From a virus: a stretch of 31,458 nucleotides of DNA. A model generated the notes under the pieces. It was not told where the DNA came from and made no database searches. It worked only from the letters and a program-made list of their open reading frames with translations. Within the stretch, counting starts at the first letter, position 1. Each line of letters begins with the position of its first letter. The stretch spans positions 1-31,458 of IMG/VR virus record IMGVR_UViG_3300048088_000072; one strand, given 5' to 3'. The position numbers and the translations under genes were made by a program. Below are positions 6,389 to 23,274 of this stretch, in pieces.

Positions 6389-7198
6389 TTACCGCACAGC
6401 CGCCAGCAGGTCCTCGTCCGAGATGTGGGCGTAGCGCATCGTCGTCTGTATCTTACGGTGTCCGAGGAGCTTCTGGACTACCGCGATGTTCCCAGTCCTC
6501 GACAGCGTCCGGGTTGCGGCGGTATGTCGCAGGGCGTGAAGGACGAAGTCGTCGTCCCCCTCGAGGCCCATAGCCACCTTCAGGCGCAGCCATACAGCCC
6601 GCAGTTTCCCCTCGTCCAGGGCGAAGGGCAGCCCCTGGGCAATCGCATCCTGAGCACGGACGCTGAGGGGCACCGAGCGGGGCTTCTTCGTCTTGTTGAC
6701 CCACAGCCGAACCCACGGTCCATCCACGTTCTTCGCCTCGAGCTTCAGGATCTCCGAGCGGCGCATTCCGGTGTCGATGGAGACCGTAAGGAACCTAGCG
6801 ACCTCGGCCTCTCCCCAGGTGTCCAAGAGGGCGAACATCTGAATTTCTTCGACTTCTGTCAACCAGCGGGTGCGTCCCTCCGTTTCTTCCTTCCATTCGA
6901 ACTTCGGCATCTTGGCGAGCCACTCGCGCTCGAAGCCGTACTTGAGGACCGTGTGGATGTTGGCCAGCTTGCGGTTGACCGTGGCGTCCGCGATGGTCCC
7001 TTGGACCTCCAGGATGAAGTCGTCGATGGTCGTCGTCCGGACGTCCTCGAGGGCCAGGTTGCCGACCACCTTGATGAACTGCTCGACGTTGCGGTAAGCG
7101 GTGAGTTCGTAGGCCTTGCCGCGCCACAGGGCCTTGGCGGCGATCCGAAGGAGTTCGTGGAGGTTCTTGGGAGCTTGTACCGGCTTGGTGGTCTTCAT
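6389..7198 (-). CDS. Tyrosine recombinase / integrase
   Basis: 269 aa from the ATG at 7198, which has AGGAG upstream; a longer frame runs into the promoter and was rejected. The N-terminal core-binding domain (about 10-95) precedes a catalytic domain with the full set: R146 in TGMRRSEI, K169 in NKTKK, H221 and R224 in HALRH, H247 in LLGHRK and the nucleophile Y256 in TMRYAHIS. It breaks and rejoins DNA strands at specific sites. It could integrate the phage or, next to rep and par genes, act Xer-like to resolve multimers of an episome. No excisionase was recognised. Confidence 0.92.
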   Translation of the reverse strand: MKTTKPVQAPKNLHELLRIAAKALWRGKAYELTAYRNVEQFIKVVGNLALEDVRTTTIDDFILEVQGTIADATVNRKLANIHTVLKYGFEREWLAKMPKFEWKEETEGRTRWLTEVEEIQMFALLDTWGEAEVARFLTVSIDTGMRRSEILKLEAKNVDGPWVRLWVNKTKKPRSVPLSVRAQDAIAQGLPFALDEGKLRAVWLRLKVAMGLEGDDDFVLHALRHTAATRTLSRTGNIAVVQKLLGHRKIQTTMRYAHISDEDLLAAVR

Positions 7199-7320
7199 TC
7201 TTGTTCTCCTTTGGTCTGAAGGTATCTTCTCAGGTTCTTGAGACGACTTCTGTCTCGATCCGCACTGCTGTGTTCGCTTCCGTACACACATTTGTTCAGT
7301 GCGCAATTGCCGTAGATGTG

Positions 7321-7349
7321 ACTGTACCAACTTGTACGACACGATGCAA
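7321..7349 (-). promoter_or_regulatory. Candidate sigma70 promoter of the integrase
   Basis: TTGCAT-N17-TACAGT on the minus strand (-35 at 7349-7344, -10 at 7326-7321). TTGTAC occurs in the spacer at 7332-7337. It leaves a leader of about 115 nt before the integrase ATG. Confidence 0.5.
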
Positions 7350-13786: not shown

Positions 13787-14386
13787 TTATTCAGTCAAGC
13801 CTTTCGGCATGTGGTCGTTTTCGATCAGCACCTTGAAGTTCTGCTTCGATGCCGTGTGGTAGACGATGATGCCCTCGGGCTTATCGAAGCCAGGGACCGC
13901 AAAGGAGCCGCCGTCGATCAGCTCCTTCATCGCGAGGTCGACAGTCGCCATGTTCCCGTTCGTAGCCAGTACCGGGACCACCTCGCAGCACTTCGGTGTG
14001 TTCGGGTTGTGCCGACCCCAACGGGCCGTGTTGAATAGGGCGAAGCGCTTGTGATCGAGACCGTAGCCGCGTTGGATTCCCTTGCCGTACCACTCGCCGA
14101 AGTGCTGGCCCTCGCCGAGCTTGAAGAGTTCGGCCTGGTTCTCGTAGCACCACTGGGCGAAGCCGTAGTTGTCCGTGGCCTTGCCGGGGGTGATCCAGCG
14201 GGACCGCGAGCCGACGCGCATGGTCGTCAGGCGTCCGTCGAGTGCGTACGTCTCCGCGATGATGTGCTCATCGGCGAGGCGGTCATCGACCGTGATCACC
14301 ACCTGGGCGTTCGTGCCGTCCAGCTTCTCGGTGATGACGATGTCCCGCTTCAGGCGGGGGGTCTTCGGGTACGGGGTGAATTCCAT
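13787..14386 (-). CDS. RNA ligase-family nucleotidyltransferase
   Basis: 199 aa, small for the family. Motif I EKLDGTN has the adenylylated lysine at K21. Motif IIIa is in HFGEWYGKGIQRGYGL, motif IV in KPEGIIVY and motif V in NFKVLIEND. These match the covalent nucleotidyltransferase fold of RNA ligases (Rnl2/DRB0094-like) rather than the larger ATP-dependent DNA ligase of T7. There is no OB or C-terminal domain. It could seal nicked RNA, for example to reverse host tRNA cleavage, or serve as a minimal ligase in replication. Position just upstream of the polymerase fits either. Confidence 0.82.
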   Translation of the reverse strand: MEFTPYPKTPRLKRDIVITEKLDGTNAQVVITVDDRLADEHIIAETYALDGRLTTMRVGSRSRWITPGKATDNYGFAQWCYENQAELFKLGEGQHFGEWYGKGIQRGYGLDHKRFALFNTARWGRHNPNTPKCCEVVPVLATNGNMATVDLAMKELIDGGSFAVPGFDKPEGIIVYHTASKQNFKVLIENDHMPKGLTE

Positions 14387-19366: not shown

Positions 19367-21871
19367 TTATGCGAACGCGTACGGCGACTGCTTGATCAAC
19401 TGCAGGTCCAGGGTGCCCTTCGCGGGGAGGCCTAGCTTACCGAGGTCCTTCATGCTCTTCTGCAGCTTCGTCATGACAGCAGCGTCCTCGCACGTCGAGA
19501 CCAGTTCCATCATGTCATCGACCGCATTCGTCAGCACGCCCTCGAGCGGCTCGTTGTCTTCGTACATCTCAACGAACGCTTCGCGGATCATGCGATTGAA
19601 CTTGGGCATCTGATTAGGCAAGGCCGCGAACGAGTCGTGGATCAGCAGGAAGTCGTTGATGCCATTGTCGACGCACTTGAGCACGCTGAGGCCCAAATGC
19701 GCACCATCGAGCGAATGCACGAAGTTCGGGGCGCACGAATTTCTGCACTTGTGCTCCAAAAGCTCCTTGGTGTAGCCCATGACAATCTGCGGGTCATAGC
19801 GCACCGGGACGTTGACATCACGGCTCCACAGGGTCATCTTCAGGCGCTTGACGTTCGGCTTGTAGTACGCGTTCTCCACCGGGAGGCCGAGGGGGGTGAC
19901 CCATCGCATCGGGATGTTGTGACGCGCCAGGATGCCTGCGACCTTCTGCAGCCATTCCATCGCATCAGCAGCGGCCTTCACGGTCTCCTTCACAGCCGCC
20001 ATGATGTGCGCAGCCAGGTAGTGCGCAGCCGGTACTTGCTCTGCCCACTCGGTGCCGAAGATCTCGCGGCCTTTACCTTCAACGTCGATGATGTCCTCGA
20101 CCAGCTGGTCCGCGAAGCCTTTTTGCTTGCTCCCGTACACGAACGTCATAACGGCACGCTTGCAGACCTTGCGGTCGATGCCGTAGTCGATCCACTTCTG
20201 CGCCCACTGGGCCTTCTCCGGGTCCATCAGATCAGCCTGGACCAGCGGCAGCACGATGGTCGATGCCTTGCGGTAGACGTCCTGCGGGAGTTCCGAGGGC
20301 AGCAGGTTCACATAGCTGCCACCTTCCGGGTCACGGAGGAGGGCAGAGAAGTGCTGCAGGCCCGAGCACGAACCGTCGACGGCGACCGGGATGTGACACA
20401 CGTAGCCTTCGGGATCCTTCATGTAGCCGTCGAGCGCCAGGCACGCGGCCAGGTAGCAGAACGGGCTGTCAGCGCCTTGCCACAGGGGCAGTGCAGCCAG
20501 AGGGTCTTCAGCGATAGCGCGGACGGTCGACAGGTTCTCGTCAGTCCACTGCACGCGACGGTCGTGAGAGGCCTTGTCCATGGCGAGACCATCCACTTTG
20601 AACGCGCCAGTCGTGGCCACGTGCCACTTGAGCCAGTAGACGCCGTCCTCGTTCAACACCTCGCCTCGGGCCAGTTCATACAGCCCCTTCGCGAAGTCCG
20701 CTCTCTGATGATTTAGACCCGGACGCGCATAAACGCGACCACGCCAATCGTCCGTATGCGGCTGCCATAGCGGAGCGCCAACATACTGCTTGGCTTCAGC
20801 GATGGCCGACCGGATTGCGTTGCGCTTGGCGCGGATGGCCGCGTTGTCCTTGCGCATCTTGACGGCCTTCTTCGGCTCCTCGTCCTTGGCGATCTCGAGC
20901 GGCTTGCCCGGGACCTTGCCGACAGCGATGCCCGACACGAAGCAGTGCTCGAGAACCTCGAGAACCTTCGCATTGAGCATCAGGGGCACGTCCTGGACAG
21001 CATTCAGGGCACGGACGAACGGGGCGTTAGCTTTCGCGGCCTCGTCGATCAGCTTGCGGACCTTCTTGTTAGGCGTGGACACAAGCGGGACCGTCTTGGC
21101 GACCCGTTGGTCATTGTAGGCACCAGTGTCGAGGGCGGTCCAAGGGTTCGGACGCGTAACCATGGGCTGGTAGACCGGGTGCATGAACTGCTGAATCTCA
21201 GTCATGTTGTCCATCTCGGTCTGCGCGGCCTCGGTGAACTTCAGGGTCGTGCCACCAGTGAACTCATCGCCTTCAACCGTATGGAACATGTCCATCGCGG
21301 GCAGGGCAATGTTGATTAGGTTCAGGCCAACCTTGATGAACTCGTCGGGCGTGCGCTCTTCGCCAGCAGCCTCGAGCAGGTCGACCCCTTTCTTCTCGCC
21401 AGAGCGGGCCGAGGTCACCTTGCGACCGACCAGCTTCTGCAGTTCGGCCTTGGCTCCCTTGTCCTTCTCGGCCTTGGCTTGCTCCGCGAGCTTCAGGCTG
21501 GCCATCTCGGCCTCGACCTCGAAACCGATGGTGTGCGCCATGTCCGTGACCGTGCGGTCGATGGCCGCGCCGTTGAACAGGGTACGCAGGGTGATCGCCG
21601 TGAGAAGCTCGTGGTCGACCATCGCCAGCACAGCAGCGTGAGCCGCAGGGCGACCACGGCCCTTGGCAGCAACCTCGGCAGCAGCCGTAGCGAACGCCAC
21701 GACAGCCTTCTGGAAGGCCGAGGAGAACAGCTTGTTCTGGTTGCGGGCGATGTCCCCTGCATACAGGGCACGTTCGTTGTTGTCGGCGTAGCGTTGGGCA
21801 CCACGCTCGATCATCGACGCTTCGAGATCAGCCTGGCGGGCGTAGTTCAGATCGAGATCAGTAAGGTTCAT
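19367..21871 (-). CDS. Single-subunit phage DNA-directed RNA polymerase
   Basis: 834 aa, close to T7 (883) and SP6 (874). Motif A has D499 in AVDGSCSGLQHFSALLRD, motif B has K571 and Y579 in CKRAVMTFVYGSK, and motif C has D746 in LLIHDSFAAL. The chain ends in YAFA, like the C-terminal foot of T7 polymerase. The promoter-specificity loop region (about 660-705) differs from T7, consistent with a different recognition sequence. It should transcribe from the TTAGGACGCACTATAG promoters. A degenerate copy of that promoter and a host-type promoter precede it, and a terminator follows. Confidence 0.97.
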   Translation of the reverse strand: MNLTDLDLNYARQADLEASMIERGAQRYADNNERALYAGDIARNQNKLFSSAFQKAVVAFATAAAEVAAKGRGRPAAHAAVLAMVDHELLTAITLRTLFNGAAIDRTVTDMAHTIGFEVEAEMASLKLAEQAKAEKDKGAKAELQKLVGRKVTSARSGEKKGVDLLEAAGEERTPDEFIKVGLNLINIALPAMDMFHTVEGDEFTGGTTLKFTEAAQTEMDNMTEIQQFMHPVYQPMVTRPNPWTALDTGAYNDQRVAKTVPLVSTPNKKVRKLIDEAAKANAPFVRALNAVQDVPLMLNAKVLEVLEHCFVSGIAVGKVPGKPLEIAKDEEPKKAVKMRKDNAAIRAKRNAIRSAIAEAKQYVGAPLWQPHTDDWRGRVYARPGLNHQRADFAKGLYELARGEVLNEDGVYWLKWHVATTGAFKVDGLAMDKASHDRRVQWTDENLSTVRAIAEDPLAALPLWQGADSPFCYLAACLALDGYMKDPEGYVCHIPVAVDGSCSGLQHFSALLRDPEGGSYVNLLPSELPQDVYRKASTIVLPLVQADLMDPEKAQWAQKWIDYGIDRKVCKRAVMTFVYGSKQKGFADQLVEDIIDVEGKGREIFGTEWAEQVPAAHYLAAHIMAAVKETVKAAADAMEWLQKVAGILARHNIPMRWVTPLGLPVENAYYKPNVKRLKMTLWSRDVNVPVRYDPQIVMGYTKELLEHKCRNSCAPNFVHSLDGAHLGLSVLKCVDNGINDFLLIHDSFAALPNQMPKFNRMIREAFVEMYEDNEPLEGVLTNAVDDMMELVSTCEDAAVMTKLQKSMKDLGKLGLPAKGTLDLQLIKQSPYAFA

Positions 21872-21960: not shown

Positions 21961-21982
21961 GGTGCTATAGTGCGGCCTAATT
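21961..21982 (-). promoter_or_regulatory. Degenerate phage promoter facing the RNA polymerase gene
   Basis: TTAGGCCGCACTATAG on the minus strand, +1 G at 21965. It differs from the consensus at one position (GGCCG for GGACG), and its initial transcribed bases are GCACC instead of GAAAG. It would give the polymerase a weak autoactivation loop. Confidence 0.75.
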
Positions 21983-22028: not shown

Positions 22029-22050
22029 AATTAGGACGCACTATAGAAAG
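22029..22050 (+). promoter_or_regulatory. Phage RNA polymerase promoter, rightward
   Basis: AATTAGGACGCACTATAG with +1 G at 22046, followed by AAAGGGG. Exact match of the core to the promoter at 19304. Confidence 0.88.
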
Positions 22051-22096
22051 GGGACCCTTCGGGTGTCCTTCGGACGCAGACCAGCAATGGAGAACG

Positions 22097-22120
22097 AATT
22101 AGGACGCACTATAGAAAGGA
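22097..22120 (+). promoter_or_regulatory. Second rightward phage RNA polymerase promoter
   Basis: AATTAGGACGCACTATAG with +1 G at 22114, followed by AAAGGAG. It lies 68 bp after the first rightward copy, and a hairpin GACCCC/GGGGTC (22121-22145) follows at once in the transcript. Confidence 0.88.
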
Positions 22121-22152
22121 GACCCCATCAAGGGGGTAGGGGGTCCTTAGAG

Positions 22153-22171
22153 ACCCTAGGATCCTTAGGGT
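22153..22171 (+). repeat. GGATCC-centred near-palindrome in the leader
   Basis: ACCCTA and TAGGGT flank GGATCC with one bulged base, about 40 nt into the transcript from the second rightward promoter. CCTAGG is repeated at 22155, 22176 and 22232. Confidence 0.45.
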
Positions 22172-22381
22172 TATTCCTAGGACCATAGAACCTGAGAGTG
22201 TTTTTCATTAAGGGTGTTTTTCTAGGATCAACCTAGGGACACCTGATGTACCTTTGATTCACTTGGATCACCACGAGAGTCCCCAGGACCCTATACACAC
22301 CGAGGCGACACAGCGCCAACAGCAACCATAACTATGGTCGCCCTCGGGAATACTAGGGACTCCCGCGATGGTCCTTTTTCC

Positions 22382-22406: not shown

Positions 22407-22416
22407 AGTACACAAA

Positions 22417-22488
22417 GGGTGGTAGCAGAGGCTGCCAGTCGGATTCCAAATCCGCACCGAGGAGGTTCGATTCCTTCGCTGCCCGCCA
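22417..22488 (+). tRNA. tRNA-Trp-like gene, anticodon CCA, reduced D-arm
   Basis: 72 nt with an encoded 3' GCCA. The acceptor GGGTGGT pairs with GCTGCCC (three G-U pairs). The anticodon loop TTCCAAA carries CCA at 22446-22448 on a CGGA/TCCG stem. The T-arm GGAGG/CCTTC closes a loop TTCGATT. The D-arm is abnormal: GCAG/CTGC closes only three bases, and the conserved D-loop GG is missing. It could be a functional minimal tRNA, a decoy, or a tRNA-like structure for another purpose. It lies on the rightward phage transcript. Confidence 0.65.
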
Positions 22489-22655
22489 GAGCAAACAGGA
22501 CCCCTAACGGGTGTGTCCTCAACGGTTGTCAGTGACGATGGGTGCTATCGGAACTGTCGCACACATTCCCCTCCAGTTCCCTCTACATAATCTTCAGCAG
22601 ATACCGTAAACTCCTTGGTAAACCACGGTACACCACGGTCACTGGGGAGACCAAC

Positions 22656-22787
22656 ATGCACTTCATCATCGGCTTCGTCCTGCTCGTCCTGGCCTTCGGG
22701 TTGTTCCCGAGGGTAGCCCTGGCCTTCACGGCCCTTGGTGCAGCAGGTATCGCAGCGTTCTTCGCTGTGCTCCACTTTCTACCCTAG
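22656..22787 (+). CDS. Small two-segment membrane protein
   Basis: 43 aa from the ATG at 22656 with GGGGAG upstream. MHFIIGFVLLVLAFGLFP and VALAFTALGAAGIAAFFAVL are two hydrophobic helices with one Arg between them. It is the only protein gene close downstream of the rightward phage promoters, so it should be strongly expressed. It could be a small holin-like or superinfection protein; no family is recognised. Confidence 0.6.
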   Translation: MHFIIGFVLLVLAFGLFPRVALAFTALGAAGIAAFFAVLHFLP

Positions 22788-22810
22788 CCCTCCCATACCA
22801 GCCGGGAGGG
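22788..22810 (+). terminator. Hairpin directly after the small membrane protein
   Basis: CCCTCCC (22788-22794) pairs perfectly with GGGAGGG (22804-22810), starting at the base after the stop. There is no U-run, so it may be a pause, processing or phage-polymerase terminator site. Confidence 0.45.
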
Positions 22811-23274
22811 TCCCCCAAGACCATGGTGCAACGCCATGGCCTCGTCTACCCGCAATAGGTAGGCTCGAGCGTGCCCTTTCGATTGTTCGGCCATCCACCG
22901 TAACCGGATACTCTCTCTCGCTCCCGAGAGGGCACCCTCAAGCCAATTTTCCAGCAACGTGAAAATGGTCTTTTCCCAAAGGGCCAAAGAATTTTTACGG
23001 GGGCCTACTTTCGTAGCCCTAAATTTCTGGATTTTCCCTGTTACGTCCGGCCCAGTCCCAAGACCAGAGACGCCCATCGGGTAGTCAGGATGCGGAGCGA
23101 CTGGGTTGGACCCCCTCAGATCACCGGATTTCACCCCTCGTCGAGCGTCACCGGCCCGGATCGTAGGGCAAGGCACGGCCTCAAACATACCCTTGCGGCA
23201 TGTCTACAGGCCCCTTCCTGCCCCTCCCAGACATCGGGCAGGGGTTAGGCAGCCTTGAGGCCCCCGAGCGGCCC
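22811..23274. other. Structured DNA without a convincing gene
   Basis: Contains GTGCCCT/AGGGCAC (22871-22877 with 22929-22935) enclosing a CTCTC/GAGAG hairpin. Next is a long imperfect stem: the outer arms CCAAAGAATTTTTA at 22984 and TAAATTTCTGG at 23020 enclose the inner pair GGGCCTAC/GTAGCCC. A CCTGCCC/GGGCAGG hairpin lies at 23217-23242. A 134-codon frame on the minus strand exists but has no ribosome binding site. The density of stems suggests a structured RNA or processing signals. Confidence 0.45.

Follow-up and report, generated by a model that had tools for sequence, protein, structure and literature searches.

The stretch of DNA analysed here (the window, 31,458 nucleotides, positions 1 to 31,458 of IMG/VR virus record IMGVR_UViG_3300048088_000072) belongs to a T7-type phage, encoding a single-subunit RNA polymerase, a DNA polymerase, a primase/helicase, a Gp2.5-like protein and an endonuclease. 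The features considered below are as follows:

6389-7342: tyrosine integrase (profile search)
13787..14386, minus strand: RNA ligase, 199 aa (Pfam PF09414, 43.5 bits, cut-off 27; PHROG 548)
19367..21871, minus strand: single-subunit T7-type RNA polymerase, 834 aa (Pfam PF00940, 322.5 bits)
21965..21980, minus strand: T7-type promoter directed towards the RNA polymerase gene (motif scan)
22031..22051, plus strand: T7-type phage promoter TTAGGACGCACTATAGAAAGG, copy 1 (motif scan)
22099..22119, plus strand: the same promoter, copy 2, exact (motif scan)
22269..22379, plus strand: conserved structured leader, downstream of the promoters and upstream of the tRNA, with a terminator-like hairpin and T tract at its 3' end
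22408..22618, plus strand: cargo slot whose contents vary among sister phages (right border within 22565-22813)
22417..22488, plus strand: compact-D-arm tRNA-Trp(CCA), 72 nt including an encoded CCA (ARAGORN; model R1)
22425..22435, plus strand: D-arm, 4-bp stem GCAG/CTGC and 3-nt loop AGG, the loop at 22429-22431 (covariation of free pairs)
22440..22454, plus strand: anticodon arm, 4-bp stem and loop TTCCAAA, with the anticodon CCA at 22446-22448 (ARAGORN)
22461..22477, plus strand: T-arm, loop TTCGATT (ARAGORN drawing, family scan)
22485..22488, plus strand: discriminator G73 and encoded CCA (G73 in 44/44 family members)
22656..22787, plus strand: small hydrophobic ORF of 43 aa downstream of the slot, seen by eye also in L017, L016 and L025

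The window phage also encodes a ParA-like protein, which together with the tyrosine integrase indicates that it is probably temperate. Its nearest relative with a named host lies on contig 46 of Caballeronia temeraria LMG 29319, where the RNA polymerase is 84% identical; an actinobacterial host was dropped, since this contig holds the sole close relative of the polymerase found in genome contigs (the other match reached 28%). The integrase (6389-7342) raises the question of whether the tRNA is an integration-related piece, serving either as attachment site or to make up for a host tRNA-Trp gene that integration disrupts, and tRNA-dependent lysogeny is known (PMC10865867). However, the integrase lies 15 kb from the tRNA, the related Caballeronia contig ends with tRNA-Leu genes, and the window shares no 14-mer with the Caballeronia tRNA-Trp, for which reason an attachment-site origin was rejected; we give this reading scarcely any probability.

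The promoter motif TTAGGNCGCACTATAG occurs four times in the window, at 22031 and 22099 on the plus strand and at 21965 and 19304 on the minus strand, the shuffled mean for its 21-base form being 0.00. The first-pass annotation, made from the sequence of the window alone, had placed the tRNA directly on the transcript of two strong phage promoters. Two exact T7-type copies do lie upstream, but the terminator-like hairpin ending at 22379 intervenes, so that the tRNA would need either read-through or another promoter. The 13 outer pairs of this hairpin are nearly invariant in 9 sequences and therefore show almost no covariation. The conserved stretch leading from the promoters to the tRNA measures about 260 nt (22120-22380 of the window), with the long, near-invariant hairpin at its end. 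On the other side, 3' of the slot, a second structured RNA (22805-22940) has changes on both sides in 7 of its 39 predicted pairs (4 sequences) and no Rfam match at gathering.

Close IMG/VR sister phages share DNA with the window up to about 22407, and the shared DNA resumes between 22565 and 22813. The interval is occupied by the same tRNA-Trp as in the window in L004 and L037, by a tRNA-Asn in L020, by a tRNA-Tyr, a tRNA-Gln and a small ORF in L024, and by a different stretch readable as an ORF in L025, while L018 and L021 have no tRNA there; in the BLAST table, the slots of L013/L014 and L019 follow those of L021 and L025. This region is an exchangeable cargo slot, and since several sister phages are without tRNA-Trp, the tRNA is dispensable. 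The slot of L016 (5140-5540, minus strand) encodes a 75-aa ORF with the Acb2/Tad1 hairpin domain (PF24729, 68.3 bits), and such an ORF can be recognised by eye in the slots of L006 and L022, the Pfam score being that of the L016 copy. This Acb2-type ORF is, by its sequence, an anti-CBASS candidate in a T7-type phage. In L017 (Caballeronia temeraria contig 46; 5377-5452, minus strand) the slot tRNA has a 6-base anticodon loop, and yet it scores 48.6 bits with RF00005. An element (AACTAATG ... GGTCGTTAGG) was seen by eye in similar form 3' of the tRNA-Tyr of L024 and of the tRNA-Trp of L038, which are otherwise different phages. The RNA ligase gene of this T7-type phage recurs in L004, L006, L009, L017, L023 and L035. 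As a partner of the tRNA-Trp it was rejected for lack of specificity, because it is present in L006 and L017, whose slots are without tRNA-Trp.

The only tRNA gene that ARAGORN reports for the window is a tRNA-Trp(CCA) at 22417-22488 on the plus strand, which bears out the earlier description of a tRNA-Trp with a good acceptor, anticodon arm, T-arm and encoded CCA. In the ARAGORN drawing the acceptor has 7 bp, three of them G-U pairs, and the anticodon CCA sits in a 7-base loop with U33. The connector between acceptor and D-stem is a single base, A at 22424. The D-loop of three bases that had been reported is real, the arm reading GCAG-AGG-CTGC. On the other hand, the same description held that the arm lacks the conserved GG and is vestigial; the loop reads A-G-G, so the GG is present, and the arm is instead a compact one with GG in its loop, found in phages of several groups.

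Covariance models, which had been suggested as a check, rate the window tRNA poorly. Rfam gives no match at gathering anywhere in the window, and RF00005 assigns 20.3 bits to the identical copy in L004, below the gathering value of 29, a score cut-off that is no biological definition of a tRNA. The minimum-energy fold of the window RNA differs from the cloverleaf (z -1.3). With our family model R1, which itself contains a copy identical to the window RNA, that RNA scores 69.0 bits and the Caballeronia tRNA-Trp 47.7. Across the family, the compact tRNA passes Rfam gathering in 6 of 19 loci tested (L040, L056, L065, L068, L071 and L074) and ARAGORN reports 27 of 44 members. If the class is real, the 13 of 19 tested loci under the Rfam cut-off would imply that phage tRNA sets are undercounted.

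In a lax Rfam scan of the window the best match was tRNA-Sec, at 22.8 bits against a gathering value of 47 and with the variable arm missing. A tRNA-Sec identity was rejected on this score, the long acceptor, 6-bp D-stem and long variable arm not being found. Since tRNA-Sec is a UGA reader, this match favours the view that the altered D-arm extends UGG reading to UGA in the fashion of the Hirsh suppressor, the precedent being a D-stem G24A change with which tRNA-Trp reads UGA (PMC11805395); the architecture also resembles that of tRNA-Pyl (PMC7609411). We compared stop use between loci with compact and with canonical tRNA-Trp on crude ORFs of at least 150 codons, duplicate contigs included. 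In low-GC loci UGA stops are rarer where the tRNA is compact (9% vs 24%, and 21% vs 32%; 9 loci), but the shares are 43% vs 53% at 50-60% GC and 62% vs 48% at 60-75% GC. As there is no consistent avoidance, the lower share appearing in small low-GC bins only, the UGA-reading signature was rejected, and we regard this view as quite improbable.

A BLAST search of 50,697 phage records with the window tRNA gave no match covering at least 80% of the tRNA with its flanks; its direct relatives therefore come from metagenomic contigs only. One of these, the tRNA-Trp of L038 (found with a gapped pattern), keeps TAGCAGAGGCTGC, although a count by eye puts it some eleven substitutions and a single length change away from the tRNA of the window; in its acceptor G6-C67 has become A6-U67 and U7-G66 has become U7-A66, so that pairing is maintained, and it passes the RF00005 gathering threshold with 33.7 bits. 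The first-pass annotation had proposed looking for the shortened arm in relatives, and it is kept in L038 and beyond, though several sister phages are without the tRNA altogether. This bears on the idea that the gene is a captured tRNA on its way out, having lost part of its D-arm. The low RF00005 score, the 6-base anticodon loop of another slot tRNA (L017) and the sister phages without a tRNA are all in line with such degeneration; nevertheless, L038 keeps the arm along with compensating acceptor changes and other phages carry it with covarying stems, which makes degeneration very improbable.

The same compact arm was read in the tRNA-Trp of Mycobacterium phage Asterius, Klebsiella phage FZ41 and Vibrio phage D419, and ordinary D-arms were read in the tRNA-Trp of PS2, Muldoon, EM, Acinetobacter phage 133, Salmonella 7-11, CC2 and CM1. 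The Asterius gene matches 158 Mycobacterium phage records at 95% or more, and the D419 region matches 286 Vibrio records (285 at 99% or above), the arm having been read in one record in each case; the FZ41 region matches its own record only (1 Klebsiella record). The FZ41 and D419 records have no tRNA annotated where the compact tRNA-Trp sits, and mycobacteriophage records do annotate the gene as tRNA-Trp. Among the 26 ARAGORN tRNAs of the Asterius cluster, only tRNA-Trp has its anticodon before position 32, and a shortening limited to this one tRNA argues against general decay. The gene annotated as tRNA-Pyl(CUA) in the same Asterius cluster (L317, 6610-6683), with its anticodon at 32, has a small D-arm by eye and may also be reduced, ARAGORN drawing a 7-base loop. 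In seven loci (the window, L038, L051, L057, L059, L069 and L083), all or some of which are fragments, the compact tRNA-Trp is the sole ARAGORN tRNA. Compact tRNA-Trp of the GGGTGGT type (AGGTGGT in L051) lies, by eye, near terminase-like ORFs in L050, L051, L059, L069, L075 and L083. Evidence for a cellular origin was sought in 398 Pseudomonadota genomes, none of which contained the family pattern in a strict form (AGG, GC..GC, Trp loop) that would miss diverged relatives.

A pattern scan of IMG/VR, which left D-stem pairs 3 and 4 free, returned 44 stretches of the same design, duplicates counted, and the same pattern gave 36 distinct 74-nt sequences across all loci collected. A register-aware scan, conditioned on an NGG loop, a paired D-stem, three anticodon-stem pairs, the Trp loop and threshold scores for acceptor and T-stem, yielded 44 distinct members, with the D-loop AGG in 38 and TGG in 6; apart from G73 and the anticodon extension, these features were thus selected by the scan. 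In the sample chosen by anticodon and T-arm, at least 92 of 105 distinct tRNA-Trp strings among the matches listed have a good acceptor; among those same matches the D-region is 18-20 nt long in at least 78 and 14-17 nt in at least 14, and a strict 3-base loop occurs in at least seven (L051, L054, L250, L269, L275, L278 and L288; L244 is doubtful). This sample comprises at least 120 stretches, and another one at least 119. A class restricted to tRNA-Trp was rejected: a strict scan of loci not chosen by their D-arm gave 9 tRNAs with a three-base D-loop, 3 of them Trp, set beside 987 distinct ARAGORN tRNAs with 95 Trp, a comparison in which the detectors differ. The 3-base NGG D-loop is also seen in tRNA-like sequences assigned by anticodon to Gly (L153, L228), Met (L130, L148, L150, L182 and L254) and Cys (L065, L278). 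A fully paired D-stem is present in 33 of 104 distinct strings, 23 of these with TCCAAA, the remainder of the 104 including many ordinary initiator tRNAs in another register. The compact arm is, on these counts, enriched in Trp and not confined to it.

The two free D-stem pairs form in 29/30 and 29/30 distinct strings, each made up of the pattern and the seven bases upstream of it; in 2000 shuffles the mean is 13.2 for either pair and the maxima are 22 and 23. That the arm is kept more than chance would have it follows from these free pairs and from L038, where it persists alongside paired acceptor changes. In a MAFFT alignment of 42 members (L244, probably canonical in another register, and L057, with a poor T-stem, being within the 44 and outside these rows) the covariation score is 0.640 vs 0.180 for shuffled alignments (0/500) and at most 0.158 for slid controls, figures that stand for strong covariation and not for a probability, as the shuffles leave relatedness in place. 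On every measure the 42-member structure scores above each of the 500 shuffles and each slid control; its D helix is partly selected, D-stem pairing being a condition of the scan, as are three anticodon-stem pairs and the acceptor and T-stem scores. The anticodon extension and the T-stem covary in this alignment, and each acceptor pair forms in 35-38 of 38 members, partly selected by the acceptor threshold. The family thus has a cloverleaf whose four stems (acceptor, D, anticodon and T) covary. The discriminator G73, which lies outside the search conditions, occurs in 44/44 members.

The 44 members take three forms. Ten combine a connector of 0 bases with a 4-bp D-stem and 20 a connector of 1 base with 4 bp; the remaining form (14/44) has an AG or GG connector, whose G is able to add a fifth, G-C pair to the D-stem. 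Below the 4-bp anticodon stem the members have a mean of 1.45 extra pairs vs 0.53 in shuffled sequences (0/5000), and four extra pairs are reached only in the connector-0 form, so that the longest stem occurs where the connector is shortest. In the 1-base-connector form of the window 13 of 20 members have no extra anticodon-stem pair, and the window itself has no extension without a bulge. In the class as a whole the acceptor has 7 bp, the connector 0 or 1 base and the D-stem 4 or 5 bp; the D-loop is three bases long, NGG and mostly AGG, and the anticodon stem is longer in some members. The T-arm is normal, with G73 and the anticodon CCA completing the design.

We consider it likely that the locus encodes a genuine phage tRNA-Trp of this compact-D-arm class, predicted to be functional in the role proposed below, and the compact arm looks like a working, little-noticed tRNA shape and no broken gene. 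The first-pass annotation had offered an unusual functional tRNA, a mimic or a processing signal as possibilities, and the first is the best of the three, given the covarying free pairs, G73 in all members and the covariation of anticodon and T-stems; its qualification of the arm as vestigial falls away. As a mimic, the RNA would soak up a host nuclease or modification enzyme and go unused in translation. Its altered core would suit a decoy, the substitute for position 8 being U in 2 of 38 dereplicated members and 10 having no such base, as would an AGG loop without a U for dihydrouridine and a slot shared with an anti-defence candidate. But a decoy has no obvious need for G73 in 44/44 members together with a paired acceptor and T-arm, and we think it unlikely. 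The RNA may alternatively be a processing signal; this, like a pure decoy, leaves the joint retention of acceptor, G73 and T-loop unexplained.

G73 is an identity base for tryptophanyl-tRNA synthetase, and a charged, decoding tRNA is argued for by the retention of G73, the paired acceptor, the anticodon loop and the T-loop. In the functional reading, transcription from the T7-type promoters would reach the compact tRNA-Trp of the window phage by reading through the terminator-like hairpin, and the tRNA would be charged by the host tryptophanyl-tRNA synthetase and would decode UGG during infection, the GG of the small D-loop still meeting the T-loop. A weaker inference is that the spare tRNA-Trp would replace host tRNA-Trp destroyed by a tRNA-cutting defence, and the altered D-arm and connector might hide it from the nuclease. 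Such replacement would be the likeliest use: the position is shared with the Acb2/Tad1-hairpin ORF, and both the other contents of the slot and the phage tRNAs known from the literature to overcome tRNA-cutting systems suggest that an attacked host tRNA-Trp is replaced. With a single codon for tryptophan, supply of synonymous codons is an unlikely reason for carrying a lone tRNA-Trp, which makes the gene a direct way to test why phages have tRNAs at all. More tentatively, and with less probability than its rejection, these genes could form a separate phage tRNA class, chiefly tRNA-Trp, with an AGG loop, a connector of 0 or 1 base and an anticodon stem that compensates, active on the ribosome and yet unseen by host enzymes that read the elbow, both those of tRNA-cutting defence and modification enzymes. 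If this were true, the class would be a natural bacterial counterpart of the type I mitochondrial tRNAs, often overlooked by annotation tools.

The single gene is already known as tRNA-Trp in mycobacteriophages, and we found no account of its shape; open-licence PubMed Central papers, searched by title and start of abstract, gave no description of a compact-D-arm phage tRNA class. Compared with the canonical bacterial tRNA-Trp of Caballeronia temeraria (L316), the phage RNA has the same CCA anticodon, YTCCAAA loop, G73, T-loop and 7-bp acceptor, but the Caballeronia tRNA has a 2-base connector, an 8-base D-loop and its anticodon at 34, the corresponding figures for the phage RNA being 1, 3 and 30. 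Asterius, a carrier of the compact tRNA-Trp, is a phage that we take to belong to Mycobacterium cluster C1. For cluster C1 tRNAs with altered anticodon loops an escape from tRNases has been proposed (PMC10264068); those tRNAs change the anticodon loop, whereas the compact tRNA-Trp changes the D-arm and its anticodon loop looks ordinary. Strongly expressed phage tRNAs are reported to act against defence, tRNA-Tyr against retron-Eco7 and tRNA-Lys against PrrC (PMC11555353). They resemble the present case in being phage-encoded and behind strong phage promoters, and differ in that their function was tested; the terms D-arm and D-loop are absent from the main text of that paper. The D-arm-less "mini HisT" of evolved E. 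coli indicates that bacterial translation accepts a reduced D region (PMC11551756), although it is artificial and has no D-arm, whereas the phage arm is natural, has stem and loop, and retains the cloverleaf. The closest likeness in shape is to type I mitochondrial tRNA-Ser(UCN) and tRNA-Pyl, in which a short connector goes with a long anticodon stem (PMC7609411, a review of non-canonical tRNAs whose main text does not contain the word "phage"). Shared with them are a one-base connector, a small D-loop and, in part of the class, a lengthened anticodon stem, and tRNA-Ser(UCN) retains G18 G19 as the phage loop keeps its GG; they differ in serving other amino acids in other genomes and in their three-base variable arm, and the anticodon-stem lengthening is weak or absent in the window tRNA. 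The short connector and small D-loop are present in all 44 members; with respect to the anticodon stem of at least 6 bp, the family has its mean of 1.45 extra pairs on a 4-bp stem, and up to 4. As small-D-loop, short-connector tRNAs have been described from mitochondria and as tRNA-Pyl, the phage cloverleaf stretches this picture more than it breaks it.
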